Shown piece by piece: positions 2,871 through 57,321 of a DNA stretch of 64,000 nucleotides (position 1 is its first letter; every line of letters starts with the position of its first letter). Below the pieces are notes generated by a model that searched no databases, was not told the DNA's origin, and saw only the letters and a program-made list of their open reading frames with translations. The translations under genes and the position numbers were made by a program. The DNA lies in assembly GCA_963575745.1 (NCBI GenBank), contig CAUYUJ010020145.1, positions 99,107 through 163,106 of the forward strand, read 5' to 3'. The stretch comes from Prorocentrum cordatum. Lineage: Eukaryota > Sar > Dinophyceae > Prorocentrales > Prorocentraceae.

Positions 2871-2872
<2 letters not shown>

Positions 2873-2910: not shown

Positions 2911-2915
<5 letters not shown>

Positions 2916-17843: not shown

Positions 17844-18082
17844 TAAGCGGATGGGCAGCGGATAGTTTGTGGCTCGTCGTGGCGCTGCGAGCATTCGTCT
17901 TAACTCGCCAGAATTCTCAAGCTCATGCTCATGCAGAGAATATGGAATGTTTAGCTTTCCTTTAAGCGGATGGGCAGCGGATAGTTTGTGGCTCGTCGTG
18001 GCGCTGCGAGCATTCGTCTTAACTCGCCAGAATTCTCAAGCTCATGCTCATGCAGAGAATATGGAATGTTTAGCTTTCCTTT
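17844..18082 (+). repeat. 119-bp tandem duplication
   Basis: 17844-17962 and 17963-18082 are essentially identical, which indicates a recent event. Confidence 0.9.
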
Positions 18083-20809: not shown

Positions 20810-20989
20810 CCCGGACGACTGCCCTGGGAAGGGCCGCCAGAGGCCGAAAACATGGAGGAACCTGCCGTCAGGATTTTTGTCGCTACGCGAGGCAGACCCC
20901 CCCCTAACCAACGAAAAAAAAAAAACCAACGAAAACACCGACGAAAACGCACTCTGTCATACATGAAGAAGAAAGAAGAATCACACGCC

Positions 20990-21329
20990 CAGAACGGCAA
21001 TCTGAGCACGGAAACGCCCAGAACAGCACTCTGAGCACGGAAACGCCCAAAACGGCAATCTGAGCACAGAAACGCCCAAAACGGCAATCTGAGCACGGAA
21101 ACGCCCAGAACGGCAATCTGAGCACGAACGCGCCCGCAACGGCAATCTGAGCACGAAAACGCCCAGAACGGCAATCTAAGCACGAAAACGCCCAGAACGG
21201 CAATCTGAGCACCAAAACGCCCAGAACGGCAATCTGAGCACGAAAACGCCCAGAACGGCAATCTGAGCACGGAAACGCCCAGAACGGCAATCTGAGCACC
21301 GAAACGCCCAGAACGGCAATCTGAGCACG
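20990..21329 (+). repeat. 29-bp minisatellite, about 12 copies
   Basis: Unit CTGAGCACGGAAACGCCCAG plus AACGGCAAT, with few changes. It forms the left flank, and probably the original target, of the Z element array: the last unit breaks off at GGAAA where Z segment B2 begins. Confidence 0.92.
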
Positions 21330-21454
21330 GAAAATCATGGCGGCCGCCAAGCCCTCGCATGTGCAGACAAATGGCCGGCGCCCTCGCGCCAGCAAGGGGC
21401 TTGAGGGAAGCGCTGCCTGGCTGGGATCTTCTGGATCTCAATCCGAGACTCCCA
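21330..21454 (-). repeat. Z split-repeat segment B2
   Basis: 125 bp, nearly identical to 22378-22502. On the minus strand it ends GATTTTC at the minisatellite border, the same type of core as in E1 and E2. A 47-bp unique spacer (21455-21501) separates it from A2. Confidence 0.75.
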
Positions 21455-21501
21455 GCCAGGACAGGGCACCGGCGAAAGCCGCGAGGGTGGTATGCGGGTG
21501 G

Positions 21502-22377
21502 GCCAGAGACGGCGCGCAGGCGCGGTGAGAAACAGCCCTTAGGGCTTGGGTTTGTCCGCGACAAGACACGACCCTGGGTTTGCCCGCGAAAAGGCAGGGA
21601 CCCATGCCAGAGGCCCCCAAGTCGGCGGGCTTAGCGCCAGAGGCCTCCAAGTCGGTAGGCGTGGCAAGCCAGAGGTCTCTAAGTCGGCGGACATGGCTGA
21701 GGATGCCCTCTCGGCGGGCCAGGGTGGCGACGAGCGCGGGCACGCCAGACAGAGCGCTCCCGCCAGAGAGCATCACGCTGTTGAAGCAGCACTTGTCCGC
21801 GAGAAAGCAGGAAGCCTCGGTTTGCCCGCGAAAAGGCAAAGGCCCGAAGGGGGGCAGCCCTTAGGGCTTGGGTTTGTCCGCGAGAAGACAGGGACCCTGG
21901 GTTTGCCCGCGAAAAGGCAGGGACCCATGCCAGAGGCCCCCAAGTCGGCGGGCTTGGCGCCAGAGGCCTCCAAGTAGGTAGGCGTGGCAAGCCAGAGGTC
22001 CCCAAATCGGCGGACATGGCTGTGCAAGAGCGGCAGGACAACACTTCCAGCGGTCAAGGCGACGGAGGAGCGGCAAGAATCGACTAGCTTTCGACGCCGC
22101 TACCTCCAGGAACCTCAAGCGAGGACAACGGACACGCCTAGGCGACGAGGAACGCGGGCTGTGGCGACGAGGAGCGCGGGTAAGCCTCGAGAAACCCCAC
22201 GCCAGCAGAGCCACGCCCAGGAGCTTACTTCCGCCGTTCCACGGAATCGCCGGCCTGCGGAGGACTACTAGCCCGCGAGGCAGGCGAAGAGGCATAGAGG
22301 CGAAGAAGCAAGGAGAAAACAATGCGAGGGCTTGCTCCTGATGACTTTCCTGTGACGGAAACAAGTTTACGCGCCAT
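21502..22377 (-). repeat. Z split-repeat segment A2
   Basis: About 876 bp, repeated at 26841-27718 and 46628-47500. Contains irregular copies of a 28-bp motif with TTTGCCCGCGA(G/A)AAGGCAGG. The open frames across it are repeat artefacts. Confidence 0.75.
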
Positions 22378-22502
22378 GAAAATCATTGCGGCCGCCAAGC
22401 CCTCGTATGTGCAGACAAATGGCCGGCGCCCTCGCGCCAGCAAGGGGCTTGAGGGAAGCGCTGCCTGGCTGGGATCTTCTGGATCTCAATCCGAGACTCC
22501 CA
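22378..22502 (-). repeat. Z split-repeat segment B1
   Basis: 125 bp, ending (minus strand) GATTTTC directly next to A2, so 22378-22384 represents the junction expected in the circular intermediate. Confidence 0.72.
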
Positions 22503-23685
22503 ATGCACCAGAAGACGCCAGACAGCGCAGCAGCTTGCGATGCAATCGTGAATATTCGTCACCCAATGCGCACGATCAGCGTCAACGCTGCCAGCTGCTT
22601 ACTGATGCGTGAGCTTCTGCATCCCGCCGCCGATGTGCGCGGTGACGCGCAATTTCCCCCGCGGCCAATGTGCACTGATAACGTTCCTGCGCGCTGGCGC
22701 AGCCATGCCTGTCTTGTCCTCAGCGCTTGTGTGCTCGTTTGCGCTCTGCATGCGCGACCGCTCGCGCTTCTCAGTGTGCGCGTCTGCGCACGACTGCGCG
22801 ACTTCGTCTGTTGCGGCGCGCTGCAACAAGCCATTGCATGCCAAGACGCGCATCTTTGCGCGTCTGCGCTCCTGTACACTTGTGGCGCGCCTTTGGACAT
22901 ATGCGTGCATCCGCGCGCTTGCGCGCGCTTCTGAAGTTGTGCGCGCTCCCTGTGCGCACGTGCACTTCGGCACGCGTTCCCGCGCGCATCTGCACTCCGC
23001 GCGCCTCTGCGCGCTTGCGCGCGTTTCAGCGTTTCCGTGCGCCCGTGCGCGCTACTGCTCACCTCTTCGAGCATCGCGCGTCTTCGCACCTGTGCGCACG
23101 TCCGCGCGACACTCTGCGTCCCTTACCTATGAGCGCGAATATCTACGCACCTCGGCACGCTGTTCCACGCTCGCGCGCGTCTCTGCGCGTCCGTGCGCAC
23201 TGCGTGCTGCTGCGCGCTCTGTGGACGATTCTGCGCGCCTCTTGCGCATGTGCGCTCCGCTGCCGCCTCTGCGATGTCTCTGCGCTCACGCGTTTCCGCG
23301 TGCCGCTGCTTGCATGTGCGCGTCTGCGCGACGCTGCGTGTCCCTGCGCGTCAGCGCGTTCCGCGCGCCGCTGCGCAATTGTGGTCCTTCTGTGCGCTTT
23401 GCGCGTGCGCACTTGCGCGACCGGGCAGGTCTGTGCACAATTGCGCGTCTGCGCGCTCCCGCGGGCCTGTGTGCGCTCCTGCGCCCCATCCCGCCTGTAC
23501 GCTTGTTCTGCGTACTTCCGGTGTTTTTGCGCGCTCCTGTGCGCCTGTGCACCTCTGCATGGTTCCGCACACCTCTGCACGCTGCGCGCTTCTGCGCGTC
23601 TCTGCGCGTCTTTGAGAATGCTAATCTGGGCGCCCCGCTCCGCAGAACGCACGAAACTGCGGAACGCGCACAAACTGCAATTTTG
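22503..23685 (-). repeat. Z internal region, GCGC-rich
   Basis: About 700 bp built from irregular GCGCGTCTGCGC-type words. Long frames on both strands (up to 460 codons) arise because stops are rare in such sequence; no motif supports a protein. 23680-23685 (ATTTTG) is the empty site used by E2 in unit 2. Confidence 0.7.
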
Positions 23686-23736
23686 GTCGCAATTCTGGGC
23701 GCACCAGCGCCGCCGAGCGCGGAATTGCGCTCCAAA

Positions 23737-23778
<42 letters not shown>

Positions 23779-26700
23779 GGCGCCTCGCGCTGGAGACTGC
23801 ACGAAACCGCGGAATCGCATCCGAATTGCAATTCTGGGTGCACCTGCGCCACCGAGCGCGGAAGAGCTCGGGAACGCGCTCGAAATGCTAATCTGGGCGC
23901 TCCGCGCCGCAGAATGCAAGACTCGAACTGCGATTTTGGGCGCACCTGCGCCGCGAAGGCACGAAAACTGCATTCATTGATGCCAATCTAAGCGTGCGGC
24001 TTCCTGCAACGCAGGCAACCGCTGAATCGCGTGCAATCGCAATTCTGGGCGCACCAGCGCCGCTGAGCGCGGAACTGCGCTCAGAATACCACTGCGGGCG
24101 CCCTGCGCCGAAGATTTGGAAAACTCGCCCCGAAGACGATTTGGGCCACCTCCTGCGCCGCCGAGCGCAGAAACGCGCTTGGAATGACAATCTTGGCGCC
24201 AGAATGCGGAATCGCGCTTAGTTGCAAATCTGGGCGCGCCTGCCAGAGTGCGCGGATTCGCGCTCCATTTGCGAATCTGCGCGCGCCTGCGCCAAAATGC
24301 GCGGACTCGCGCTCCGTTTGCGATTCTGGGCGCGCCTGCGCCAGAATGCGCGGAGTCACGCTCGGTTTGCGATTCTGGTCGTGCCTGCGCCAGAATACTC
24401 GGACTCGAGCTCCATTTGCGACTCTGAGCGCGCCTGCGCCAGAATGCGCGGAGCCGCGCTCCATTGGCGATTCCGGGAGCGCCTGCGCCAGAATGCACGG
24501 AATCGCGCCCCAGTGGTCATTCTAGGCGCGCCTGCGCAAGAATGCGCGGATTAGCATTCAATTTGCGACTCTGGACGCGCCTGCACAGAATGCGCGGGTT
24601 CGCGCTTCGTCTGCGATTGACTGCGCGGAGTCGCGCTTGGCGCTTTTCGGCGCGCGTGCGCCAGAGAATGCGAAGTCGCGCTCCATTTGCGCTTCTAGGC
24701 GCGCCTGCGCGAGAGAATGCAGAATCGCGCTCCAGTTGTCATTCTGGGCGCGCCTGCGCAGACATGCGCGGATTCGGACTCCACTTGCGATTCTTGGCGC
24801 ACCTGCGCCACAATGCGTTGATTCGGGCCTCGCAAATTCGCGTTCCTTTTGCGATTATGGGCGCGCCTGCGCCCGAACGCGCTGAGCTCCACTCCATGTG
24901 TGAATCTGGGTGCCTGCGCACGAATGCGCGGAGTCGCGCTAACCATTTGCGATTCTGGGCGCGCCCGCGCCAGAATGCGCGGAGTCGCGCTCGGTTCGCT
25001 TCTGGTCGCGCCTGCGCCAGGATGCGCGGAATCTCGCTCCATCTGCGATTCTGGGCGCGCCTGCGCCAGAATGCGCGGAGCCGCGCTCTATTGGCGATTT
25101 CGGGCGCGCCTGCGCCCGAATGCGCGGAATCGCGCTCTAGTTGTCATTCTGGGCGCCCTGCACACTCACTCCATGTGCGATTCTAGGCGGGCCTGCGCAA
25201 GAATGTGCGGAGCCGCGGTCCAGTTTCGATTATGGTCGCGCCTGCGCCAGAATGCGCAAACTCGCGCTCCGTCTGCGATTTTGGGCGCGCCTGTGCCCGA
25301 ATGCGCGGAGTCGCGCTCCATTTGCGATTCTGGGCGCGCCCGCGCCAGAATGCGCGGAGTCGCGCTCCATTGACGATTCCGGGCGCGCCTGCGCCAGAAT
25401 GCGCGGAATCGCGCTCCACTTGTCATTCTGGGCGCGCCTGCGCGAGAATGCGCGGAGCCGCGCTCTATTGGCGATTCCGGGCGCGCCTGCGCCAGAATGC
25501 GCGGAATCGCGCTCAAGTTGCCATTCTGGGCGCGCCTGCGCAAGATTGCGCGGATTCGCATTCGACTTGCGACTCTGGGCGCGCCTGCGCCAGAATGCGC
25601 GGGTTCGCGGTTCTTCTGCGATTCAGGGCGCGCCTGCGCCAGAATGCGCGGAGTTGCGCTGTATTTGCGCTTCTCGGCGCGCGTGCGCCAGAGAATGCGG
25701 AGTTGCGCTGTATTTGCGCTTCTCGGCGCGCGTGCGCCAGAAAATGCGGAATCGCGCTCCAGTTGTCATTCTGGGCGCGCCTGCTCAGAAATGCGCGGAT
25801 TCGCGCTCCACTTGCGATTCTGGGCGCATCTGCGCCAGCATGCGCCGCTGCACTGCAAAACTGGGCACGCGGACGCCCACGAGCGCAAAGTCGCGCTCAG
25901 ACTGCGAATCTGAGTGCGCCTGGGCACCAGAACGCAGAAAGGAAGGAGCATAGAGTGCAATACTGGGCAAGCGAATGCCGCCCGAGTGCACAGTCGCGCT
26001 CAGACTGGCCAGCACAGACCTGGGAATGGCAAGCGGCGAGGGCCAGAGAGAGCACGGCCCCCACGGCGGCAGCAACGACGCACTCTACGTTTCACCACAG
26101 GCGGCAAGGACCAGCGAGAGAGTAGCCCTCACGGTGGGGTGCGAGAATGGCCCTCAGCGGCACCAGGAATGCACTGAGAGCCGCACCCACTGGAAACCAA
26201 CGAGGAGCCAGCGCCCCGGGACGCCCGGTCCTCTGGCGAAGAGGGCCGGAGAGCGTAGCTCGACAAGCCTGGGTTTGCCGCTCGCGAGAAGGCAGTGAAC
26301 GTCCACATCGCAGGAGGTGAAGCCCGCGAGAAGGCAGCGACCCCAAAGTGATGCAGCTTCTCGCGACAAGGCAAGAACTTCGGGTGCGTGCGAGAAGGCT
26401 TTGCCCGCGAGAAGGCAGCGAATAAACTGCACGCAGCATGCCACACAGAACCCGGCAGAGCCTGGGAGAAGTGCGGCCTGAGTTTGCCCGCGAGAAGGCA
26501 GGGGCTCTGGGTGTGCCCGCGAGAAGGCAGGGACCCTGGGTTTGCCCCGAGAAGGCAGGGGCCCTGAACTTGCCCGCGAAGGCGGAACCAGAGAATGAGA
26601 AACACGGTGGCCTGAGTTTGCCCGCGAGAAGGCAGGGACTCTGGGTGTGCCCGCGAGAAGGCAGGGACCCTGGGTTTGCCCGCGAGAAGGCAGGGGCCCT

Positions 26701-26840
26701 GAACTTGCCCGCGAAGGCGGAACCAGAGACTGAGAAACACGGTGGCCTGAGTTTGCGCGGGAGAAGGCAGGACTCTGGGTATGCCCGCGAGAAGGCAGAG
26801 ACCCTGGATGTGCACGCGAAACGCAGGGGCCCTGGATGAC
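23686..26840 (-). repeat. Z leader: 49-bp satellite plus 28-bp array
   Basis: From about 24210 to 25860 the block GATTCTGGGCGCGCCTGCGC recurs every 49 bp (e.g. 24322, 24371, 24420, 24469). About 26460-26830 is an array of a 28-bp motif containing CCCGCGAGAAGGCAGGG. In minus sense the 49-bp unit resembles the leader array of E2, in the same orientation relative to the element. An (AT)18 run lies at 23740-23775. Not coding. Confidence 0.8.
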
Positions 26841-29011
26841 GCCAGAGACGGCGCGCAGGCGCGGTGAGAAACAGCCCTTAGGGCTTGGGTTTGTCCGCGA
26901 CAAGACACGACCCTGGGTTTGCCCGCGAAAAGGCAGGGACCCATGCCAGAGGCCCCCAAGTCGGCGGGCTTAGCGCCAGAGGCCTCCAAGTAGGTAGGCG
27001 TGGCAAGCCAGAGGTCTCTAAGTCGGCGGACATGGCTGAGGATGCCCTCTCGGCGGGCCAGGGTGGCGACGAGCGCGGGCACGCCAGACAGAGCGCTCCC
27101 GCCAGAGAGCATCGCGCTGTTGAAGCAGCACTTGTCCGCGAGAAAGCAGGAAGCCTCGGTTTGCCCGCGAAAAGGCAAAGGCCCGAAGGGGGACAGCCCT
27201 TAGGGCTTGGGTTTGTCCGCGAGAAGACAGGGACCCTGGGTTTGCCCGCGAAAAGGCAGGGACCCATGCCAGAGGCCCCCAAGTCGGCGGGCTTGGCGCC
27301 AGAGGCCTCCAAGTCGGTAGGCGTGGCAAGCCAGAGGTCCCCAAGTCGGCGGACATGGCTGTGCAAGAGCGGCAGGACGACACTCCCAGCGGTCAAGGCG
27401 ACGAGGAGCGGCAAGAATCGACTAGCTTTCGACGCTGCTTCCTCCAGGAAGCTCAAGCGACGAGGACAACGGACACGCCTAGGCGACGAGGAACGCGGGC
27501 TGTGGCGACGAGGAGCGCGGGTAAGCCTCGAGAAACCCCACGCCAGCAGAGCCACGCCCAGGAGCTTACTTCCGCCGTTCCACGGAATCGCCGGCCTGCG
27601 GAGGACTACTAGCCCGCGAGGCAGGCGAAGAGGCATAGAGGCGAAGAAGCAAGGAGAAAACAATGCGAGGGCTTGCTCCTGATGATTTTCCTGTGACGGA
27701 AACAAGTTTACGCGCCATGAAAATCATTGCGGCCGCCAAGCCCTCGTATGTGCAGACAAATGGCCGGCGCCCTCGCGCCAGCAAGGGGCTTGAGGGAAGC
27801 GCTGCCTGGCTGGGATCTTCTGGATCTCAATCCGAGACTCCCAATGCACCAGAAGACGCCAGACAGCGCAGCAGCTTGCGATGCAATCGTGAATATTCGT
27901 CACCCAATGCGCACGATCAGCGTCAACGCTGCCAGCTGCTTACTGATGCGTGAGCTTCTGCATCCCGCCGCCGATGTGCGCGGTGACGCGCAATTTCCCC
28001 CGCGGCCAATGTGCACTGATAACGTTCCTGCGCGCTGGCGCAGCCATGCCTGTCTTGTCCTCAGCGCTTGTGTGCTCGTTTGCGCTCTGCATGCGCGACC
28101 GCTCGCGCTTCTCAGTGTGCGCGTCTGCGCACGACTGCGCGACTTCGTCTGTTGCGGCGCGCTGCAACAAGCCATTGCATGCCAAGACGCGCATCTTTGC
28201 GCGTCTGCGCTCCTGTACACTTGTGGCGCGCCTTTGGACATATGCGTGCATCCGCGCGCTTGCGCGCGCTTCTGAAGTTGTGCGCGCTCCCTGTGCGCAC
28301 GTGCACTTCGGCGCGCGTTCCCGCGCGCATCTGCACTCCGCGCGCCTCTGCGCGCTTGCGCGCGTTTCAGCGTTTCCGTGCGCCCGTGTGCGCTACTGCT
28401 CACTTCTTCGAGCATCGCGCGTCTTCGCACCTGTGCGCACGTCCGCGCGACACTCTGCGTCCCTTACCTATGAGCGCGAATATCTACGCACCTCGGCACG
28501 CTGTTCCACGCTCGCGCGCGTCTCTGCGCGTCCGTGCGCACTGCGTGCTGCTGCGCGCTCTGTGGACGATTCTGCGCGCCTCTTGCGCATGTGCGCTCCG
28601 CTGCCGCTTCTGCGATGTCTCTGCGCTCACGCGTTTCCGCGTGCCGCTGCTTGCATGTGCGCGTCTGCGCGACGCTGCGTGTCCCTGCGCGTCAGCGCGT
28701 TCCGCGCGCCGCTGCGCAATTGTGGTCCTTCTGTGCACTTGCGCGACCGGGCAGGTCTGTGCACAATTGCGCGTCTGCGCGCTCCCGCGGGCCTGTGTGC
28801 GCTCCTGCGCCCCATCCCGCCTGTACGCTTGTTCTGCGTACTTCCGGTGTTTTTGCGCGCTCCTGTGCGCCTGTGCACCTCTGCATGGTTCCGCACACCT
28901 CTGCACGCTGCGCGCTTCTGCGCGTCTCTGCGCGTCTTTGAGAATGCTAATCTGGGCGCCCCGCTCCGCAGAACGCACGAAACTGCGGAACGCGCACAAA
29001 CTGCAATTTTG
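26841..29011 (-). repeat. Z unit 2: segment A, B1 and internal region
   Basis: Near-identical copy of 21502-23685. Unit 2 and unit 3 share a 15-nt deletion relative to unit 1 (unit 1 has GCTTTGCGCGTGCGC at about 23396-23410). Unit 2 is interrupted at 29006-29011 by E2. Confidence 0.85.
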
Positions 29012-29381
29012 ATACCCCCTAAACCAAAGGTTTCGATGGGGAGGAAAATCTAGAAAGCCCCGCCCGATGTAAACCGGTTGGTGGATTCATCAGTTGATGG
29101 CTTTAACCGTGTACGTAAACTCGTGGGCAGTCACGGCTTGGGCTCCCGACGGAGCAGCGGATTTCTTCCAAGGCCTGGTTGGCTCCAACTCGGAGCAGCG
29201 GTGGTCTTCGACAACTCCGGAGGCCGATCGGGGCACCGCCCGGCTCGGGGGCGGGATAGCAAGTTCCCGGCGCCACGGCCGCCGCGGAGCAAGCGCCCTG
29301 CGGGGTGCACTCGCTCCGCCGGGGGGTCTTTGCAAGCCCCCAGTGGTCCACATAGTGGGCCAGGTGCTGTTCGCAGCGCCC
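29012..29381 (+). repeat. E2 split-repeat segment A1
   Basis: Matches A2 at 42905-43266, apart from a 6-nt AAGGTT present only in A1 and two extra bases near 29052. The first 30 bases hold CCCCTAAACC AAA GGTT...GGGG, a hairpin containing a plant-type telomere-like CCCTAAA. Confidence 0.88.
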
Positions 29382-30527
29382 TGGCTGCCATGCTCTGGCC
29401 TGCGCCCTTGCTGGCCAGTGCTGTGCACAAGTGGGTCCCTGGCCTGGCTGCCATACCCCAGGCCCGCGCCCTTGCTGGCCAGCGCCTTCCTCGTCGCATG
29501 CTGGTGCGCCTCGCAAGCGCTGGGGTCGTTCTGGCGCCAGCACGCCCAGAATTGCATTCTGCGCGCGATTCTGCACAATCTGGCGCCGGCGCGTCCAGGA
29601 GTGCAATCGCAGCGAATCCCTGCATTTGCGGTCAGGGCGCAAACTTGCGCATTGCACTCCGAATGCGCTCATTCTGGCGCCAGCCTGCCCGGAGTGTACC
29701 TGCCCTGGCTGAAATACCTGGGCTCGTGCCCTTGCAGGCCGCACCCTTGCTGGCGCCTCCTCGTCGTGTGCCCGCGCATGTCTCTCCTGCGGGCCTGCTG
29801 GGCTGGCTCGCCGGCCACCCTGGCAGGGCTGCCCGTTGCTCGCTGGTACAGCGCCCGTATCTGTGCGCAAAATCGCGCATTCTGGCGCTAGCGCGCCAAC
29901 AGGTGCTGTCTGGGCGCAAATCTGCACACTTTCGCGCTGGCCCGCCCAGAATTGCAATCGGGGCGCGAACCTGCGGAATCTGTCGCCAGCTCGCTCAGAA
30001 TGGCATTCTGAGTTCTAATCCGCGCATTCTGGCGCCAGGGCGCTCAGAATTGCATTCGGGCCCCGACTCTGCGCAATGTGGCGCTCGCACGCCCCGAATT
30101 GCAATCAGAGCTGGACTCCGCGCAATCTGGCGTTGGAGCGGACAGGGTTTCAATCGGAGCTCGAATCTGCGCAATCTCGCGCTGGCGCGCCGAGAAGAGG
30201 CGAACAGGCGCTTTCGGCGCTAGCGCGCCCAGAAATGCATTCTGAGGCCGAATTTGCGCACTCTGCCGCCAGCGCACCCCAAATTGCATTCTGGGCGCGA
30301 CTTGCGCATTCTGACTCTAGCGCGCCCAGGGAGGCATGCTGAGGCCGAATTTGCGCAATCTGGCGCCCTCACGCCCAGAAGTGCCGTCGGAGGGAAACCT
30401 TCGCCTTTCGGGACTGGTGCGCCGAGAATTGCATCTGGAGGGCAAACCTTGTATTCTAGCGCAAGCGCGCTCAGATTCGCACTCTCAGCGCGAATTCGCG
30501 CGCCTGGGCGCCAGCGCGCTCAGAGTT
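29382..30527 (+). repeat. E2 leader with 49-50 bp degenerate array
   Basis: From about 29520 the words GCGCCCAGAATTGCATTCTGG and CTGCGCAATCTGGCGC alternate with a period of about 50 bp. E3 has the same leader (49162-50306). At 30527 the array is joined abruptly to the middle of gag, so the gag 5' end has been deleted. Confidence 0.75.
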
Positions 30528-30756
30528 CTGGGGCGTGAAGATGGTCCTCACGAAGGCCATCACCTCCACGCAGTTGCTCGCGTACCAGATCGTACTCACC
30601 CGGGTGGCAGAATAATACGGCGGCTTCAGGGTGTGCACACACTACGATCTCTTGCTCAGACAGAAGCTCCCCCGATGAAAGGGACGAGCGGTCGCAGATA
30701 GAGACGCTCCTGTGCACTCTGGACCGCGACGTGCTGGCGGACGCGAAGAACAGCGC

Positions 30757-30878
30757 TGAAAATCTTCTGCGTTCGGCCATGCGACCGTGAAGTTGGGCGT
30801 CGCCTCCGCGCTAACAATTGGCGAGCGGAAATGTTTGGCGCCGCCAGGTTGGCCCAGACTGGACATCCACCAGGGCCC
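30757..30878 (-). repeat. E1 split-repeat segment B2 (3' end)
   Basis: 122 bp including core TGAAAA (30757-30762); its outer border joins the E2 gag codon. Confidence 0.92.
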
Positions 30879-30940
30879 CAACCTGACCAAGGCGCCGCCC
30901 AACAAACGCGTAGCCACAAGGGCGGGAATGGGTGGGATGC

Positions 30941-31350
30941 GAGCCCAATGGGCGCGCTTGCACCGCACGGCCTGGGAACGACGGTGGGCGCCGGCCCCCG
31001 TGCAGCCTTCACTGCGACGCCGCCGCCACCTGCCAGCCCAGGAACAGCGGAGCGCGGCCCAAGGCACGCCAATCAACCAACCAACCAACCAACGGCAGGA
31101 GAAGGAGGAGGAACCGCCTGCTGCTACGCAGCGCGCGGCCGTGAGAACCACCTGCTGCAATGCAGCGCACGGCCGTGAGCATCCGCCTGCTGCGCTGCAG
31201 CGAAAGGCTGTGAGACACCACTCCGCTGCACCACAGCGGTGCCAAGGCTGTGAGAAGGAAGGAAGCCCAGAGGCACAGAAGCCAAGAAGCCTACAAAGGC
31301 CTCCCTGAAGATTTTCCTGCCCCCCAAACCGCTACGCGATTTTGGGGCTA
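30941..31350 (-). repeat. E1 split-repeat segment A2
   Basis: 410-bp copy of A1. The spacer 30879-30940 separates it from B2. Confidence 0.92.
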
Positions 31351-38126: not shown

Positions 38127-38536
38127 GAGCCCAATGGGCGCGCTTGCACCGCACGGCCTGGGAACGACGGTGGGCGCCAGCCCCCGTGCAGCCTTCACTG
38201 CGACGCCGCCGCCACCTGCCAGCCCAGGAACAGCGGAACGCGGCCCAAGGCACGCCAATCAACCAACCAACCAACCAACGGCAGGAGAAGGAGGAGGAAC
38301 CGCCTGCTGCTACGCAGCGCGCGGCCGTGAGAACCACCTGCTGCAATGCAGCGCACGGCCGTGAGCATCCGCCTGCTGCGCTGCAGCGAAAGGCTGTGAG
38401 ACACCACTCCGCTGCACCACAGCGGTGCCAAGGCTGTGAGAAGGAAGGAAGCCCAGAGGCACAGAAGCCAAGAAGCCTACAAAGGCCTCCCTGAAGATTT
38501 TCCTGCCCCCCAAACCGCTACGCGATTTTGGGGCTA
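38127..38536 (-). repeat. E1 split-repeat segment A1 (5' end)
   Basis: 410 bp, copy of 30941-31350. Borders E2 gag through the core TGAAAA. Confidence 0.93.
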
Positions 38537-38789
38537 TGAAAAGCGCGTGAAAGAGACCGCGAAGGCGGCCACGAAGACGGGCCAGGCCTCTGGCTCCCAG
38601 CCGTCGCGGCCGGCGCCCGCTTCCAGCAAGGGAGGCGGCAAGGGACCCTCCAAGGGAGGCAAGCTGCCCGCCCAGCACCCCAAAGGGCGCCAGGTCCACT
38701 CTCCTGTACGTTCGCGCAGCCCCAAGGGGAACGGTGACTGGTATGCCAAGAAGTGGGACAACACCAAGAAGGGCGACAAGAAGTGGTGA

Positions 38790-40952
38790 GCTGGTTCGCA
38801 AAGCGCCAGCGATGCGTCTGGGGATCATCCAGCGGCTCCTCCCCTCGCGCAAGAGACTTGCGAAGATAGTCTCGACGGGTCCGTCGGTTTTGCCACGGAT
38901 CTGCATGAATTACAAGCTGAAGTGAACAGCTTGTTGCAAGATGTACATAGACTTGCTAACGTGTCGCCTGTAAGCCATTTCAAGTGGGCGTTTGCCCTGC
39001 CTCCTTGCTTAGGCGTCTTCCGTGTACCTGCCAGCGCGCACAGCTCAGTTCTTCATGAAAGTGGGGACAGGAGCTCTTTACACAGCTTCCGGGCGTCTGC
39101 CTTAGCTTTCTGGCGCGAACGCAAGCGAGTGACAGATTTTGAATGGCAGCGGGAGTTCAGAACACTCCCAGCACACGTGCAAGCCGTTCTAGGTCCGGAC
39201 AAAAACTTGCTTTTGCTGGCAGAGATGCTGGAGGCATCGAATAGCCCAGACGCTCAATTAGTTAAAAATTTAAGGCGTGGTTTCAAGCTCGTTGGGGAGA
39301 TCCCCCCGAGCGGCACGCTCCCCGCATGCTCACCTGTTCCGCCCTTGTCGTTAGAGGAACTCTGGCGACGCGCCCCTGCGAACAACGCAGCGCTGATTTT
39401 GAGAGCGGCTTCTTCTACCCTGTCGGATGAAGAAGCGGCAGCAGCACTGCGGGCGCAGACGGCAGCCGAGGTGGTGGCAGGTAAAGCTAGATGGACGCCG
39501 TTGTCGGCGACACTCAGCGAGGCGGCGTGTTCTCCACGTTTCGGAGTGGACGAGGGGTGGAAGTTTAAAGGTTCATCTTTTGTGCGCGCTGTCCGCGCCA
39601 TTGATGATTTTCACGCTTCCAAGGTGAACGAAGCCACGCAAGTCGAGGAGCGGGTGCGTCACGAGCACCTCGACGCACTAGTAGCAATTGGCCAAGGCAT
39701 CTGGGAAGCAAGTGGGCCAGATAGAGGCCCAGCAACACTTCGTCTTCGCAAGGATGACGTTGTAGGCGCATACAAGACTTTGCCGATTTGCGCGGATGAC
39801 CTGCCTTGCGCTGTGGCCGTTACAGAGGACACGGCGCGAACAGGCTTCGCGTTGCAGCTCTTTTCTTGCCCGTTTGGGGCTGTTGCAAGCGTGCATGCAT
39901 GGCGCCGCGTCGGTGCTGCGCTCCAACACGTGCTTGTAGAGCTGTTCCGCATGTTATACCCGCGTTTTGTCGATGACTTCTTCGGCGTCGACCGCGCGAC
40001 GCCGGGAGATACTGCCCTCACAGGACCGAGTGGTGCTGCATTTCTTGCGCGCGAAGTCGTGCAAGAATTGTTGGGTTGGCAGCTGGACGACGCGAAAGCT
40101 ATCACCGACGCTTCTGTAGCCGTAATTCTCGGCATCCAGGTTGCCCTGGATGATGCCCGGGAGCTTTTCGTCTTTAGCATTCCCGAGGCAAAGCGCGTGA
40201 AGTGGATTGCTGAGATCGATAAGATTCTCGAATTGGGCATGCTGTCGCCGGCGCTGGCCCGGAAGCTAGCAGGGAAACTGAGTTGGGGAGCAACGATGGT
40301 GTTTGGCAGGAGCGCAAGAGTGTATCTTGCAGCTCTGTTCTTCCACTCGGCCCGTCGTCTCTCCAAACTCTCTCTGCGCCTGCGCCGGGCTTTCCACTGG
40401 TGGCTTCGCTTTTTGCAATCCAACCCTCGCCGCGAGATACCCTACCTGCCAGCTGCGCGGCCCCGGTTGGTCATTTATACCGACGCAGCGGGGTGCGGAG
40501 CACTCGCGTGGGTTCTCGCGCAGGGCAACCAAAAGCAGTTCGCCCGAGCGTGGGTCCCGCGATGGCTTCGCGACAGAGTGAAGCCGCGCCGGCAGCAAAT
40601 CGGCACGTGGGAGCTCATTGCTGCGGTGTGTGGCCTTTGGCACGCGTACACCTTTCTGGAGCCAGGGTTGGAGATTTTGTTATTCGTGGATTCCAACCCA
40701 GCGCTCGGAGCATTGCTCAAAGGGACGTCCAGGCAGATCGATTGGAATGCTTTAGTGACGTCCATTTGGTTCGCGGCAGCAGACAGGGGCGACGTCTTGT
40801 GCCCCTTCCGTGTGCCGTCTGCTCAGAACCTTGCAGACGCCCCGTCCAGAGCCCATGAAGAGCCAGACAAACTGCGCACTCTGCTCGAGCAAAGGATCGA
40901 GGAGGTGCACTGGCGCTGGCCGGAAGCAAGCGTTTGGGACGAGCTCTGGTGA
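38790..40952 (+). CDS. pol: E2 pol: reverse transcriptase and ribonuclease H
   Basis: Open for 720 codons in the same frame as gag, directly after its TGA. No ATG near the start: the frame continues upstream for 44 codons to that stop, so expression by readthrough is likely. RT motif A is Arg-Lys-Asp-Asp-Val-Val-Gly-Ala-Tyr-Lys, motif B contains Cys-Pro-Phe-Gly-Ala, and motif C is Phe-Val-Asp-Asp at 39966-39977. Ribonuclease H shows Tyr-Thr-Asp-Ala-Ala, Trp-Glu-Leu-Ile-Ala-Ala, Phe-Val-Asp-Ser and Asn-Leu-Ala-Asp-Ala-Pro-Ser-Arg. It would copy element RNA in the particle. It looks intact, unlike its gag and recombinase. Confidence 0.9.
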   Translation, partial: AGSQSASDASGDHPAAPPLAQETCEDSLDGSVGFATDLHELQAEVNSLLQDVHRLANVSPVSHFKWAFALPPCLGVFRVPASAHSSVLHESGDRSSLHSFRASALAFWRERKRVTDFEWQREFRTLPAHVQAVLGPDKNLLLLAEMLEASNSPDAQLVKNLRRGFKLVGEIPPSGTLPACSPVPPLSLEELWRRAPANNAALILRAASSTLSDEEAAAALRAQTAAEVVAGKARWTPLSATLSEAACSPRFGVDEGWKFKGSSFVRAVRAIDDFHASKVNEATQVEERVRHEHLDALVAIGQGIWEASGPDRGPATLRLRKDDVVGAYKTLPICADDLPCAVAVTEDTARTGFALQLFSCPFGAVASVHAWRRVGAALQHVLVELFRMLYPRFVDDFFGVDRATPGDTALTGPSGAAFLAREVVQELLGWQLDDAKAITDASVAVILGIQVALDDARELFVFSIPEAKRVKWIAEIDKILELGMLSPALARKLAGKLSWGATMVFGRSARVYLAALFFHSARRLSKLSLRLRRAFHWWLRFLQSNPRREIPYLPAARPRLVIYTDAAGCGALAWVLAQGNQKQFARAWVPRWLRDRVKPRRQQIGTWELIAAVCGLWHAYTFLEPGLEILLFVDSNPALGALLKGTSRQIDWNALVTSIWFAAADRGDVLCPFRVPSAQNLADAPSRAHEEPDKLRTLLEQRIEEVHWRWPEASVWDELW

Positions 40953-41092
40953 GGACAGACGCGAGCGCAGGAGGGGAAAACAAATTGCACGCAACAGTTG
41001 ACCGTCGTGGCCTTCTCTTCTGGCTTCGCGGCCACCTGCCTGTCGCAGCCTGCGCCCTCATTCCGTAGCCGGTTGGGCACAAGCGTTTCTTG

Positions 41093-42618
41093 ATGGCCTT
41101 CCAGTTTATCGATGCTTCCCGGCGGCGCCATCTGGAGGCCGCCCGGGGCGCGCAGGTGCCGCAGCAGACTCCTGTGCCAACAGAGCTGAAGGCACGGTTC
41201 CAGAGTGTGCTGGCCCGGACGCCAGCTTCGTGCCATCCGGCATCGCCTGACGCAGTCTTGCAGGCGCTGGCCGATTCTGGCGCTGTTCATGGCGGCGACC
41301 TCCAAGGCCTTTCAGCAGCAGAGTTGCGAGAAGTGTGGCCACCTCTCAGAACGCTGCCCGATGACTTCCTGCGTTCCGTGTCGTGGCAGACGGGCGCGCG
41401 CGGCTCAAGCGCCGTCGTGCCTAAGTTGAAAAGACACAAGCCAGAACGCTTTTGTGAGCAAGAACTGCCTCCCGGGAGGCCGGCTGCCAGGGCGGCGGCC
41501 GACGAGCTTTCTGCAGCAGTGGAAGTTTTGGTGCAAGCCAGAGCTCAGAGATGCGCGCCTCCCGCTGATGTCCTGGCGCAATCAATTTCTGTCATTTGCA
41601 GAGCGCCAGCTCCGGGACTGCATGACGGCGCCGCGGCCTCATCTCTGCCATCGGCGAGAGCGCGGTGGCTGGCGCAAATTCCGGCGGAGCGTCGTGATGA
41701 TGTGCTCCGCGGCCGCTTGCTGCTCCAGGAAATGGAAAACTGGCGACAGAGTGGACAAGGCTACGCATCAGCTGTGCGATTGTGGGGCAGGCTGGCAGCG
41801 GCAACTGGCGTACCAGAGTGGCCGCCTGATCAGGTGGTGCTCGCAGCGCTTGCATTTGCAGTCCCACGGGCGTCCACGCTGTCCCGGTACTGTTCTCATT
41901 TGCGGTCCACGCTCAGGCTTATACAGGCGCCTTCGGGGTCGCTGGCTGACACGAGTATGCTAGTCAAAGGCGCCCAGAAGAGCTGCACTTCTGCGCCGCG
42001 CCCCAAGGCCACTGCGTCTGCGAGGCAGACCCGCGAACTCGCGGGCTACGCCCGGGACGTGTTGCAAGACGCGGAGCTCGCAGACAGTTGGGTCGTGGCC
42101 AGACATTTCACATTGAGGTATGGCTGTGAAGTACTTAAACTAGGTGCCGACCCGTCGCACTCTGAAGTGCGGTGCCACGTCCGTGACAATGTGTCTGAGG
42201 TTACCGTCGTTTTGCACAGAAGGAAAATGCAAGAAAATCTGTGCATGTGGTGCGGCAGTGCATTTGCAAGTTCGCATCGCCAGACTTGTGCGGGGTCTGC
42301 GTCTTGCGTCGACGTTGCGGCCAGGGAGCAGTATTTCCAATCCTCCAGTACGACAGGGTTTTAGCAGCATTGAAAACTGCAGCTCTAGCACTTGGTTTCC
42401 CGAGAGGAGCAGAATGGGGCACCCGCTGCTTCCGCCGCGGTTGGGCCAATGACGCCCTGCGCCATGGGGGAGTGCCAGCCTTGTTTTATTCAGGCGGCTG
42501 GCGTGGCTTAGCTGCGTTCGGCTACGCCGCGGCGCAGACGAAGGGGGAAGTTCTGGCTGCTAAGTGGGCAGCAGAGTTTTCCGATTCGTCAGACGATGGA
42601 TCAGGCGTAGAGAGTTGA
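41093..42618 (+). pseudogene. E2 tyrosine recombinase, frameshifted
   Basis: The frame from ATG 41093 runs to about 42240. A probable one-base loss there moves the rest to another frame ending at 42618. The N-terminal half would bind element ends. The catalytic half shows Arg in Thr-Leu-Arg-Tyr-Gly-Cys-Glu-Val, then Gly-Thr-Arg-Cys-Phe-Arg-Arg (42418-42440; the usual His of His-x-x-Arg is Arg), Gly-Gly-Trp and Phe-Gly-Tyr (nucleophile, about 42520). A Cys-x-Cys-x7-Cys-x2-Cys cluster lies before the His/Arg motif, as in E1. The frameshift and His loss suggest it is inactive. Confidence 0.88.
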
Positions 42619-42796
42619 GAAAACGACAGCAATATGTCATCTGGCTGGCGCTATTCCGAGCGAGCCCTGCTTGTCCCAAGTCCAGGAGGTCCGGGATTTA
42701 AAAACGGAGCGATGCTCCAGAACTCACGCGGGGATCCGGGCCCGAGTCGCCTACATTGGGAGTGTTATGGACAGGGCGAGTCGAGCTCTCACCATT

Positions 42797-42904
42797 GGGG
42801 CGCTTCTCTCGGGGCTCTCACTCGCCTGTCGCGCCGGCAGCGTCCAGATTCCTGGCCCACTGCAGGCGCGCCCACTCCACCAGAAGGCGGGCAAATAGAT
42901 TTTC
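42797..42904 (+). repeat. E2 split-repeat segment B1 with core
   Basis: 108 bp, identical by eye to 43359-43466. It ends ATTTTC (42899-42904) at the A2 border, the sequence expected at the junction of a circular E2. Confidence 0.9.
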
Positions 42905-43266
42905 ATACCCCCTAAACCATCGATGGGGAGGAAAATCTAAAGCCCCGCCTGATGTAAACCGGTTGGTGGATTCATCAGTTGATGGCTTTAACCGTGTACG
43001 TAAACTCGTGGGCAGTCACGGCTTGGGCTCCCGACGGAGCAGCGGATTTCTTCCAAGGCCTGGTTGGCTCCAACTCGGAGCAGAGGTGGTCTTCGACAAC
43101 TCCGGAAACCGATCGGGGCACCGCCCGGCTCGGGGGCGGGATAGCAAGTTCCCGGCGCCACGGCCGCCGCGGAGCAAGCGCCCTGCGGGGTGCGCTCGCT
43201 CCACCGGGGGGTCTTTGCAAGCCCCCAGTGGTCCACATAGTGGGCCAGGTGCTGTTCGCAGCGCCC
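42905..43266 (+). repeat. E2 split-repeat segment A2
   Basis: Copy of A1. A unique spacer (43267-43358) separates it from B2. Confidence 0.9.
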
Positions 43267-43358
43267 GTGGTGTTGTTTGTCATCGCCTTCGTCGTTGCCC
43301 GCCCGCCCGCCCTTATGGCTTGGTGTGGCTTCTGGGGAGTGTGGGGCTGGCGCGTGGC

Positions 43359-43466
43359 GGGGCGCTTCTCTCGGGGCTCTCACTCGCCTGTCGCGCCGGC
43401 AGCGTCCAGATTCCTGGCCCACTGCAGGCGCGCCCACTCCACCAGAAGGCGGGCAAATAGATTTTC
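43359..43466 (+). repeat. E2 split-repeat segment B2, right end
   Basis: Ends ATTTTC, immediately followed by Z sequence GTCGCAATTC. Confidence 0.9.
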
Positions 43467-46400
43467 GTCGCAATTCTGGGCGCACCAGCGCCGCCGAGCG
43501 CGGAATTGCGCTCCAAAAACTTATATATGTGGGCGCCTCGCGCTGGAGACTGCACGAAACCGCGGAATCGCATCCGAATTGCAATTCTGGGTGCACCTGC
43601 GCCACCGAGCGCGGAAGAGCTCGGGAACGCGCTCGAAATGCTAATCTGGGCGCTCCGCGCCGCAGAATGCAAGACTCGAGCTGCGATTTTGGGCGCACCT
43701 GCGCCGCGAAGGCACGAAAACTGCATTCATTGATGCCAATCTAAGCGTGCGGCGTCCTGCAACGCAGGCAACCGCTGAATCGCGTGCAATCGCAATTCTG
43801 GGCGCACCAGCGCCGCTGAGCGCGGAACTGCGCTCAGAATACCACTGCGGGCGCCCTGCGCCGAAGATTTGGAAAACTCGCCCCGAAGACGATTTGGGCC
43901 GCCTCCTGCGCCGCCGAGCGCAGAAACGCGCTTGGAATGACAATCTTGGCGCCAGAATGCGGAATCGCGCTTAGTTGCAAATCTGGGCGCGCCTGCCAGA
44001 GTGCGCGGATTCGCGCTCCATTTGCGAATCTGCGCGCGCCTGCGCCAAAATGCGCGGACTCGCGCTCCGTTTGCGATTCTGGGCGCGCCTGCGCCAGAAT
44101 GCGCGGAGTCACGCTCGGTTTGCGATTCTGGTCTTGCCTGCGCCAGAATACTCGGACTCGCGCTCCATTTGCGACTCTGAGCGCGCCTGCGCCAGAATGC
44201 GCGGAGCCGCGCTCCATTGGCGATTCCGGGAGCGCCTGCGCCAGAATGCACGGAATCGCGCTCCAGTTGTCATTCTAAGCGCGCCTGCGCAAGAATGCAC
44301 GGATTAGCATTCAATTTGCGACTCTGGACGCGCCTGCACAGAATGCGCGGGTTCGCGCTTCGTCTGCGATTGACTGCGCGGAGTCGCGCTTTGCGCTTTT
44401 CGGCGCGCGTGCGCCAGAGAACGCGAAGTCGCGCTCCATTTGCGCTTCTAGGCGCGCCTGCGCGAGAGAATGCAGAATCGCGCTCCAGTTGTCATTCTGG
44501 GCGCGCCTGCGCAGACATGCGCGGATTCGGACTCCACTTGCGATTCTTGGCGCACCTGCGCCACAATGCGTTGATTCGGGCCTCATTTGCGCTTTTGGGC
44601 GCGCGTGCGACGGAACGCGCAAATTCGCGTTCCTTTTGCGATTCTGGGCGCACCTGCGCCCGAAAGCGGTGAGCTCCACTCCACGTGTGAATCTGGGTGC
44701 CTGCGCACGAATGCGCGGGGTCGCGCTAACCATTTGCGATTCTGGGCGCGCCCGCGCCAGAATGCGCGGAGTCGCGCTCGGTTCGCTTCTGGTCGCGCCT
44801 GCGCCAGGATGCGCGGAATCTCGCTCCATCTGCGATTCTGGGCGCGCCTGCGCCAGAATGCGCGGAGCCGCGCTCTATTGGCGATTTCGGGCGCGCCTGC
44901 GCCCGAATGCGCGGAATCGCGCTCTAGTTGTCATTTTGGGCGCCCTGCACACTCACTCCATGTGCGATTCTAGGCGGGCCTGCGCAAGAATGTGCGGAGC
45001 CGCGGTCCAGTTTCGATTATGGTCGCGCCTGCGCCAGAATGCGCAAACTCGCGCTCCGTCTGCGATTTTGGGCGCGCCTGTGCCCGAATGCGCGGAGTCG
45101 CGCTCCATTTGCGATTCTGGGCGCGCCCGCGCCAGAATGCGCGGAGTCGCGCTCCATTGACGATTCCGGGCGCGCCTGCGCCAGAATGCGCGGAATCGCG
45201 CTCCACTTGTCATTCTGGGCGCGCCTGCGCGAGAATGCGCGGAGCTGCGCTCTATTGGCGATTCCGGGCGCGCCTGCGCCAGAATGCGCGGAATCGCGCT
45301 CAAGTTGCCATTCTGGGCGCGCCTGCGCAAGATTGCGCGGATTCGCATTCGACTTGCGACTCTGGGCGCGCCTGCGCCAGAATGCGCGGGTTCGCGGTTC
45401 TTCTGCGATTCAGGGCGCGCCTGCGCCAGAATGCGCGGAGTTGCGCTGTATGTGCGCTTCTCGGCGCGCGTGCGCCAGAGAATGCGGAGTTGCGCTGTAT
45501 TTGCGCTTCTCGGCGCGCGTGCGCCAGAAAATGCGGAATCGCGCTCCAGTTGTCATTCTGGGCGCGCCTGCTCAGAAATGCGCGGATTCGGGCTCCACTT
45601 GCGATTCTGGGCGCATCTGCGCCAGCATGCGCCGCTGCACTGCAAAACTGGGCACGCGGACGCCCACGAGCGCAAAGTCGCGCTCAGACTGCGAATCTGC
45701 GTGCGCCTGGGCACCAGAACGCAGAAAGGAAGGAGCATAGAGTGCAATACTGGGCAAGCGAATGCCGCCCGAGTGCACAGTCGCGCTCAGACTGGCCAGC
45801 ACAGACCTGGGAATGGCAAGCGGCGAGGGCCAGAGAGAGCACGGCCCCCACGGCGGCAGCAACGACGCACTCTACGTTTCACCACAGGCGGCAAGGACCA
45901 GCGAGAGAGTAGCCCTCACGGTGGGGTGCGAGAATGGCCCTCAGCGGCACCAGAAATGCACTGAGAGCCGCACCCACTGGAAACCAACGAGGAGCCAGCG
46001 CCCCGGGACGCCCGGTCCTCTGGCGAAGAGGGCCGGAGAGCGTAGCTCGACAAGCCTGGGTTTGCCGCTCGCGAGAAGGCAGTGAACGTCCACATCGCAG
46101 GAGGTGAAGCCCGCGAGAAGGCAGCGACCCCAAAGTGATGCAGCTTCTCGCGACAAGGCAAGAACTTCGGGTGCGTGCGAGAAGGCTTTGCCCGCGAGAA
46201 GGCAGCGAATAAACTGCACGCAGCATGCCGCGCAGAACCCGGCAAAGCCTGGGAGAAGTGCGGCCTGAGTTTGCCCGCGAGAAGGCAGGGACTCTGGGTG
46301 TGCCCGCGAGAAGGCAGGGACCCTGGGTTTGCCCCGAGAAGGCAGGGACCCTGAACTTGCCCGCGAAGGCGGAACAAGAGAATGAGAAACACGGTGGCCT

Positions 46401-46627
46401 GAGTTTGCCCGCGAGAAGGCAGGGACTCTGGGTGTGCCCGCGAGAAGGCAGGGACCCTGGGTTTGCCCGCGAGAAGGCAGGGACCCTGAACTTGCCCGCG
46501 AAGGCGGAACCAGAGAATGAGAAACACGGTGGCCTGAGTTTGCGCGCGAGAAGGCAGGGCTCTGGGCATGCCCGCGAGAAGGCAGAGACCCTGGATGTGC
46601 CCGCGAAACGCAGGGACCCTGGATGAC
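43467..46627 (-). repeat. Z unit 2: leader array, resumed after E2
   Basis: Matches 23686-26840, beginning GTCGCAATTC exactly where unit 1 continues after its empty site. Differences: the AT run is reduced to TTATATATG (43521-43529), and about 44583-44620 holds sequence missing from unit 1 near 24830. Confidence 0.88.
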
Positions 46628-48793
46628 GCCAGAGACGGCGCGCAGGCGCGGTGAGAAACAGCCCTTAGGGCTTGGGTTTGTCCGCGACAAGACACGACCC
46701 TGGGTTTGCTCGCGAAAAGGCAGGGACCCATGCCAGAGGCCCCCAAGTCGGCGGGCTTAGCGCCAGAGGCCTCCAAGTAGGTAGGCGTGGCAAGCCAGAG
46801 GTCTCTAAGTCGGCGGACATGGCTGAGGACGCCCTCTCGGCGGGCCAGGGTGGCGACGAGCGCGGGCACGCCAGACAGAGCGCTCCCGCCAGAGAGCATC
46901 ACGCTGTTGAAGCAGCACTTGTCCGCGAGAAAGCAGGAAACCTCGGTTTGCCCGCGAAAAGGCAAAGGCCCGAAGGGGGACAGCCCTTAGGGCTTGGGTT
47001 TGTCCGCGAGAAGACAGGGACCCTGGGTTTGCTCGCGAAAAAGCAGGGACCCATGCCAGGGGCCCCCAAGTCGGCGGGCTTGGCGCCAGAGGCCTCCAAG
47101 TAGGTAGGCGTGGCAAGCCAGAGGTCCCCAAGTCGGCGGACATGGCTGTGCAAAAGCGGCAGGACAACACTTCCAGCGGTCAAGGCGACGGAGGAGCGGC
47201 AAGAATCGACTAGCTTTCGACGCTGCTTCCTCCAGGAACCTCAAGCGACGAGGACAACGGACACGCCTAGGCGACGAGGAACGCGGGCTGTGGCGACGAG
47301 GAGCGCGGGTAAGCCTCGAGAAACCCCACACCAGCAGAGCCACGCCCAGGAGCTTACTTCCGCCGTTCCACGGAATCGCCGGCCTGCGGAGGACTACTAG
47401 CCCGCGAGGCAGGCGAAGAGGCATAGAGGCGAAGAAGCAAGGAGAAAACAATGCGAGGGCTTGCTCCTGATGACTTTCCTGTGACGGAAACAAGTTTACG
47501 AAAAATCATTGCGGCCGCCAAGCCCTCGTATGTGCAGACAAATGGCCGGCGCCCTCGCGCCAGCAAGGGGCTTGAGGGAAGCGCTGCCTGGCTGGGATCT
47601 TCTGGATCTCAATCCGAGACTCCCAATGCACCAGAAGACGCCAGACAGCGCAGCAGCTTGCGATGCAATCGTGAATATTCGTCACCCAATGCGCACGATC
47701 AGCGTCAACGCTGCCAGCTGCTTACTGATGCGTGAGCTTCTGCATCCCGCCGCCGATGTGCGCGGTGACGCGCAATTTCCCCCGCGGCCAATGTGCACTG
47801 ATAACGTTCCTGCGCGCTGGCGCAGCCATGCCTGTCTTGTCCTCAGCGCTTGTGTGCTCGTTTGCGCTCTGCATGCGCGACCGCTCGCGCTTCTCAGTGT
47901 GCGCGTCTGCGCACGACTGCGCGACTTCGTCTGTTGCGGCGCGCTGCAACAAGCCATTGCATGCCAAGACGCGCATCTTTGCGCGTCTGCGCTCCTGTAC
48001 ACTTGTGGCGCGCCTTTGGACATATGCGTGCATCCGCGCGCTTGCGCGCGCTTCTGAAGTTGTGCGCGCTCCCTGTGCGCACGTGCACTTCGGCGCGCGT
48101 TCCCGCGCGCATCTGCACTCCGCGCGCCTCTGCGCGCTTGCGCGCGTTTCAGCGTTTCCGTGCGCCCGTGTGCGCTACTGCTCACTTCTTCGAGCATCGC
48201 GCGTCTTCGCACCTGTGCGCACGTCCGCGCGACACTCTGCGTCCCTTACCTATGAGCGCGAATATCTACGCACCTCGGCACGCTGTTCCACGCTCGCGCG
48301 CGTCTCTGCGCGTCCGTGCGCACTGCGTGCTGCTGCGCGCTCTGTGGACGATTCTGCGCGCCTCTTGCGCATGTGCGCTCCGCTGCCGCCTCTGCGATGT
48401 CTCTGCGCTCACGCGTTTCCGCGTGCCGCTGCTTGCATGTGCGCGTCTGCGCGACGCTGCGTGTCCCTGCGCGTCAGCGCGTTCCGCGCGCCGCTGCGCA
48501 ATTGTGGTCCTTCTGTGCACTTGCGCGACCGGGCAGGTCTGTGCACAATTGCGCGTCTGCGCGCTCCCGCGGGCCTGTGCGCGCTCCTGCGCCCCATCCC
48601 GCCTGTACGCTTGTTCTGCGTACTTCCGGTGTTTTTGCGCGCTCCTGTGCGCCTGTGCACCTCTGCATGGTTCCGCACACCTCTGCACGCTGCGCGCTTC
48701 TGCGCGTCTCTGCGCGTCTTTGAGAATGCTAATCTGGGCGCCCCGCTCCGCAGAACGCACGAAACTGCGGAACGCGCACAAACTGCAATTTTG
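46628..48793 (-). repeat. Z unit 3, interrupted by E3
   Basis: Copy of segment A, B1 and internal region. The A/B1 junction at about 47500 has lost seven or eight bases (CGCCATG) seen in units 1 and 2. It ends at ATTTTG (48788-48793), where E3 begins. No further leader follows, so the array is broken here. Confidence 0.85.
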
Positions 48794-53490: not shown

Positions 53491-53525
<35 letters not shown>

Positions 53526-57302: not shown

Positions 57303-57321
57303 GGCACCACAGGCGCGCTAC

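Follow-up and report, generated by a model that had tools for sequence, protein, structure and literature searches.

Tandem Z units in the window

The window (the whole stretch analysed, 64,000 nucleotides of DNA from Prorocentrum cordatum, a bloom-forming alga) corresponds to C19296:99107-163106, and its end coincides with the end of the contig, inside an array region. On the minus strand it carries three 5339-bp units of an element, Z, arranged in tandem and set in a 29-bp minisatellite. In the element orientation, an interior of 4338 bp is followed by B1 (125 bp), A2 (876 bp), a spacer (47 bp) and B2 (125 bp), and the next A repeat lies 5339 bp upstream, giving a unit length of exactly A plus interior plus B. 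An earlier note on this DNA had recognized split-repeat ends and a circle-length tandem array in what looks like a segmental duplication; this observation was confirmed, the repeats being direct and in the order A1-interior-B1-A2-B2.

The minisatellite that serves as the target of Z occupies positions 20985 to 21329 and forms the right flank of the array, with the element-strand unit reading ...GGGCGTTTC/CGTGCTCAG... around the insertion point. It is adjoined by the outer 3' repeat B2 (21330 to 21454, minus strand), which has GATTTTC at its outer edge, and by the A2-B2 spacer (21455 to 21501, minus strand), both junctions of which, allowing up to 2 mismatches, were also present at 19 places in stretches fetched from outside the window. 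Unit 1 (21502 to 26840) is uninterrupted. It comprises, all on the minus strand, A2 (21502 to 22377), B1 (22378 to 22502), with a GATTTTC core at the B1/A2 junction, and a noncoding interior of 4338 bp (22503 to 26840) that includes a leader minisatellite (24196 to 25845) with a 49-bp period identical to that in the E1 and E2 leaders. The A repeat at the boundary between units 1 and 2 (26841 to 27718) and the B repeat of unit 2 (27719 to 27843) are likewise on the minus strand.

Unit 2 starts at 26841, and at interior position 3155/3156 it is interrupted by a second element, E2 (29006 to 43466, plus strand), whose A1 starts at 29006 and whose B1 (42797 to 42904), A2 with spacer (42899 to 43358) and B2 (43359 to 43466) lie at the other end. 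The 3' part of the unit 2 interior (interior positions 3156 to 4338) is at 27844 to 29011 and the 5' part (interior positions 1 to 3161) at 43461 to 46627, both on the minus strand. E2 in turn holds E1 (30757 to 38542, minus strand), a split-repeat element with gag-like, RT and YR frames, so that the nesting order is E1 in E2 and E2 in Z. Unit 3 starts at 46628 with the unit 2/unit 3 A repeat (46628 to 47500), which lacks its first 6 bp, followed by a B repeat (47502 to 47625) and the 3' part of the interior (47626 to 48793), all on the minus strand. Here a second E2 copy, E2' (5' part, 48788 to 50306, plus strand), enters at a site identical to that in unit 2; the corresponding position in unit 1 (23680 to 23685, minus strand) is free of E2. 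E2' contains an insertion at 50307 to 57480 with long minus-strand frames at 51294 to 57321. In the 2.2 kb common to the three units, 15 substitutions in 2168 positions separate units 1 and 2, 18 in 2163 separate units 1 and 3, and 17 in 2165 separate units 2 and 3. Elsewhere in the window, a 119-bp unit at 17843 to 18086 forms a head-to-tail duplicate with 99 to 100% identity; it was considered as a B1-B2 remnant and rejected, as it has no GATTTTC core.

In line with the earlier note, in which no reading frame looked real, none of ten Z frames had a Pfam match above the cut-off. The longest frame, 461 aa, is antisense (the maximum in 50 mononucleotide shuffles was 321), showed at least one frameshifting gap in its alignment to each of 18 other stretches, and had no excess of substitutions at third positions. 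Seven other long frames gave a like result, save for short gap-free alignments. A GT4-conflict match was set aside, because it falls in a minisatellite frame and scores under the curated cut-off; neither Rfam nor tRNA scans of the window gave any hits.

Dispersed copies and insertion sites of Z

Genome-wide searches covered a 4.13-Gb assembly of 21,875 contigs; the published genome of P. cordatum CCMP1329 is given as 4.15 Gb in 22,724 scaffolds with a GC content of 59.7% (PMC10666404). B/A junctions were found at 31 places (up to 1 mismatch; 0 for a backward-pattern control) and A starts at 62 (up to 2 mismatches; control 0). Single copies of Z were checked for the order A1-leader-B1-A2-spacer-B2, and a complete right end was present in 17 of the 20 fetched stretches, 9 of these 17 also having the A1 start. 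An independent existence of the 125-bp repeat, which would have spoken against the earlier reading, was not observed, as 60 of the 70 B starts found genome-wide (up to 2 mismatches) lie where B1 or B2 is expected with respect to an A start. The remaining 10, which include window unit 3, have no matching A start nearby and are mostly in DNA outside the stretches read. This check and that of the far-end minisatellite, described below, both came out in favour of the interpretation in the earlier note. A gene-bearing relative, W, and the DNA-level copying of E2-bearing units, also described below, go beyond it. A second kind of tandem, with a B1-to-B2 period, was seen in L013 (3636 to 5854, on C5236) in the order B1-A-spacer-B-A-spacer-B, the A repeats differing at 6 of 873 positions.

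The complete B2 ends in the fetched stretches have GATTTTC against host DNA in 16 of 17 cases and GGATTTC in the other (L025), and GATTTTC ends are also found at the window B2 and in a copy on C13764 (L057). At the other end, A1 starts with ATGGCGCG (or one base off) and is preceded by a host-derived core; left flanks vary between copies and there is no target duplication. TTT was present within the last 7 bases of 20 of 25 distinct A1 left flanks compared with a background of 5.0% (binomial P of 4e-22), the 25 being counted after merging identical flanks and including some from copies represented among the fetched stretches by their A start alone. The five flanks without TTT belong to L009 (outer and nested copies), L011, L039 and L052.

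Empty sites, where the joined flanks match uninterrupted related DNA, were found for 4 of the 9 Z insertions tested. In L009 (3225 to 7060, on C18849), one Z lies inside the interior of another at about interior position 945; its clean empty site matched L018, L012 and L021 at 99.3 to 99.7% with no gap. The empty site of L024 matched L017 (98.7%, no gap), and that of L017 matched L016 (97.2%, no gap), with the last core base being A in the empty and C in the filled site; L017 also has a second, gapped match to L016 (86%). The L019 empty site matched L015 at 96.9%, the one gap lying away from the join. L012 and L018 gave only partial matches of about 80%, and the remaining insertions had none among the matches listed. 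Because the flanks of L018 and L012 are the same on both sides, these two insertions may be one event that was copied. The flanks of L012, L018, L015 and L016 match the E1 end palindrome (local scores of 52 to 56; shuffles at most 32). Tyrosine-recombinase exchange at a short core would give the insertion pattern of Z, and the manner of insertion of E1 and E2 is similar. An inverted core, GAAAATC, lies 26 to 35 bp inside the A repeat of E1, E2, Z and W (the last as seen in L014), forming an imperfect palindrome; several array copies have GAAAGTC instead. E1-like palindromes of this kind have themselves been the insertion site of some Z copies.

Judging from the agreement between paired repeats, Z appears to have been recently active at L019, where A1 and A2 differ at 0 to 1 of 876 positions, and at L018 (2 of 877). 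Across the scattered loci L010, L013, L014, L017, L018, L019, L021 and L022, A repeats differ from their nearest relatives at 1 to 5 of about 877 positions, and older Z copies reach A1-A2 differences of about 2.5% (L011 and L027). The A1 of L022 differs from its own A2 at 8 of 873 positions and from L018 at 3 of 873, and the A1 of L012 differs from its own A2 at 10 of 872 and from L018 at 4 of 875, these last two copies perhaps being one copied event. Since its own A2 is sometimes not the nearest relative of an A1, exchange among copies is argued; such kinship would not be predicted by a simple one-template model unless copies had recombined. In L009, the A repeats of the two nested Z copies differ at 15 of 878 positions, and the pair belonging to the outer Z at 11 of 875.

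Relationship of Z to W, E1 and E2

A string adjoining one Z copy, GATTTTCATGAAGCGTAAACTCGTTTCC, had 72 exact occurrences in the genome, which represent junctions of the W family. Three open frames, of 418, 716 and 556 aa, are present in the W copy on C946; they have 47, 46 and 39% identity, respectively, to the E1 gag-like, RT and recombinase frames, the label gag being given by position. This W copy has A/B/A/B ends, with A1 starting at C946:73140 and B1, A2 and B2 downstream of the frames, and it lies inside the 29-bp minisatellite with the same cut as the Z array (ctgggcgtttc/A1 ... B2/cgtgcttag).

The families E1, E2 and W of this genome all have the GATTTTCAT core, the inverted GAAAATC core, the A/B/A/B layout and the repetitive leader seen in Z. 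On the A side of the core, W agrees with Z at 41 of 48 bases (score of 75; shuffles with a mean of 11.7 and a maximum of 39), whereas E1 has 30 identities and E2 has 27, with scores not above their own shuffle maxima. On the B side, the 28 bases next to the core fail to set W apart from the other families. The leaders of W and Z are 76.9% identical over 701 columns and the B ends 81 to 83% over 114 to 131 columns; outside the leader and ends the two are dissimilar. E1 had no match to Z, and E2 matched it in the leader minisatellite alone. Z thus has ends and a recombination site in common with an autonomous family, as seen in the A side and the B repeats, and W is the likely source of its enzymes. 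A different, unseen family could also be the helper, because W and Z differ outside the leader and ends and the 28 B-side bases do not single out W.

Searches with the E1 recombinase against Pfam, NCBIfam and PDB sequences gave nothing useful, and those with the E1 RT against Pfam and PDB sequences gave no match. A protein search returned 4 recombinase and 11 RT relatives, none of them Pfam labelled, and when 14 RT relatives were compared with Pfam, RVT_1 was detected in 5 (best E value of 0.006). In the predicted fold of the recombinase, pLDDT is below 50 from residue 540 on and the catalytic tyrosine has no placement. A 3.4-kb W copy on C12336 (L036 3845 to 4499 plus L014 1 to 2716), inserted in an E1-like recombinase gene, keeps the recombinase frame, altered near its end, and has no RT.

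From these sequence comparisons, we consider it very probable that Z is a protein-free element relying for its movement on the split ends of a gene-bearing relative, probably along with that relative's enzymes, and that it has formed a head-to-tail array at one spot. A W-type recombinase would exchange Z at a short GATTTTC-like core, Z would probably borrow W-type RT and recombinase, and the E2-bearing units would then have multiplied as DNA within the array. To our knowledge, few gene-less split-repeat retroelements have an identified enzyme donor. With a recombination site, target position and leader common to putative donor and parasite, cross-mobilization becomes testable.

TOC1 of Chlamydomonas is a nonautonomous, gene-poor element similar in size to Z, and Cryptons are recombinase-only DNA transposons without split repeats. 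Z lacks a recombinase gene but does carry split repeats, and it may still move as DNA only, a reading considered below. With its A1-interior-B1-A2-B2 direct repeats and its insertion at a short core without target-site duplication, Z resembles PAT-like elements, but it encodes neither an RT-RNase H nor a tyrosine recombinase. Its direct repeats also differ from the inverted terminal repeats with internal complementary regions by which DIRS1-like elements are defined (PMC3266345). The PAT superfamily (PAT-like, TOC and kangaroo elements), as outlined in that source, has split direct repeats as in Z in another host lineage; for Z, a partner (W) and a recombination site were identified here by sequence. 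Among dinoflagellates, SymbioDIRS-Dnmt3 of Symbiodinium is described as a DIRS-type element with the order A-coding region-B-A-B; its tyrosine recombinase has a frame of its own, and its RT is matched poorly by Pfam (PMC5890265). This element is autonomous and carries a DNA methyltransferase, in contrast to the gene-less Z, and its counterparts here are E1, E2 and W. For TATE of Leishmania braziliensis, a tyrosine-recombinase retroelement, at least one copy is described as having split repeats; its copies are clustered in tandem within a short tandem repeat, each at an equivalent position, and some may lie inside others (PMC6681497). The term DIRS is absent from the main text of the P. cordatum genome paper (PMC10666404), and no description of Z was found in the titles and opening lines of abstracts on nonautonomous split-repeat elements, dinoflagellate DIRS, TOC1 and P. 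cordatum. The parts of Z are of known kinds (PAT/TOC/kangaroo, SymbioDIRS and TATE clusters), and the Z family and its pairing with W appear to be undescribed in the literature searched.

Extent and growth of the array

The earlier note had proposed looking for the minisatellite at the far end of the array, and it was found on a second contig, where the A1 at C21270:65085 (L038) adjoins it in phase: ...GTTCTGGGCGTTTC before this A1 and CGTGCTCAG... after the window B2 make an intact minisatellite unit when joined. The array A repeats of C19296 and C21270 form one clade (local support of 0.957), and among the stretches read they alone have the A-to-interior junction GTCATCC, and this locus alone has B-A-interior tandems. 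If there is one array, its span is at least 63 kb on C21270 plus 43 kb on C19296, with five A repeats read, C21270:68201-106499 lying outside the stretches read. It is also possible that the two contigs represent separate arrays, because the minisatellite is common (569 near-exact units genome-wide) and repeatedly targeted. Both Z and W have entered it, cutting at one unit position within one base; a single Z on C13764 lies in the same minisatellite unit, cut the same within one base.

Units 2 and 3 and one unit on C21270 all carry E2 at an identical base position; in a fourth E2-bearing unit, also on C21270, about 300 bp are missing at the Z-E2 boundary and the insertion point is not base exact. 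The insertion that starts at window position 50307 occurs at the same E2 position on C21270, where further pieces of it recur with 97.1 to 98.7% identity. Because the E2-bearing units carry the same nested insertions, they spread by DNA-level duplication; as judged from these copies, they must have been copied as DNA, through either unequal exchange between repeats or a recombinase acting on DNA. For the first, E2-free tandem step, the choice between circle integration and unequal exchange is undecided, as both give identical junctions.

Growth mainly by site-specific integration, in which Z circles (cDNA or excised DNA) would repeatedly enter a resident core in a cassette-like manner in place of unequal exchange, is conceivable but rather doubtful. 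Such integration would fit a unit length of exactly A plus interior plus B, the entry of Z into cores even inside another Z (L009), and the second repeat-length kind of tandem on C5236. However, the common E2 base and the common insertion inside E2 on both contigs indicate that a whole unit of more than 12 kb was copied, unequal exchange between 0.88-kb A repeats yields identical junctions, and B-A-interior tandems are confined to this locus among the stretches read. A broader form of the idea, that Z arrays are live cassette arrays in which a helper recombinase adds and removes circles at chromosomal GATTTTC cores, we regard as unlikely; if true, units with nested cargo (E2, E1 and others) would be multiplied and moved, making a eukaryotic Cre/lox- or integron-like platform in minisatellites. 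Movement of Z as DNA, in which a tyrosine recombinase would excise and reinsert it with no reverse transcription in a Crypton-like use of a DIRS recombinase, seems distinctly improbable: the cores suffice for a recombinase, the short W copy keeps its recombinase frame without an RT, and empty sites exist, yet the near-identical copies at scattered loci imply replication, and the B1-A2 split repeats would be unneeded, though they are expected if reverse transcription rebuilds the ends, as in the model given in PMC6681497.

The array as an assembly artefact, with repeats collapsed or chained, is very improbable. The assembly is a draft, MaSuRCA-CABOG and RNA scaffolding having been used for the P. 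cordatum genome (PMC10666404), and the window ends at a contig end within the array region; against this, each unit has private substitutions (15 to 24 per 2.2 kb in the window units and C21270) as well as nested insertions, and the second contig repeats the same unit order. Least credible is a macrosatellite or segmental tandem duplication of nonmobile DNA with a coincidental 125-bp repeat at its edge. Units 1 to 3 alone, with less than 1% divergence in the common 2.2 kb, look so, and Z by itself would read as a segmental duplication or unknown repeat, but the 31 dispersed junctions, the single copies that have these ends too, the empty sites, the target preference and the placed B starts speak against it, and the dispersed copies already refute it. 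The Z array illustrates one route by which a recombinase element can give rise to satellite-like DNA in a giant dinoflagellate genome.

Nested copies at the same site allow events to be ordered. The dating of E2 relative to the array gave mixed signals and was not taken as proof: the A1-A2 divergence of E2 (9 of 371 positions) is greater than that separating unit 1 from unit 2, though unit 1 is without E2, and the absence of this older-looking E2 from unit 1 would require its precise loss or later homogenization. E2 and E2' differ at 11 of 1519 positions, and the A1 and A2 of the E2 copies on C21270 at 4 of 377. On the same contig, an E2 with a single core (L028, about 1239 to 2133) is free of E1 and provides the E1-free site.
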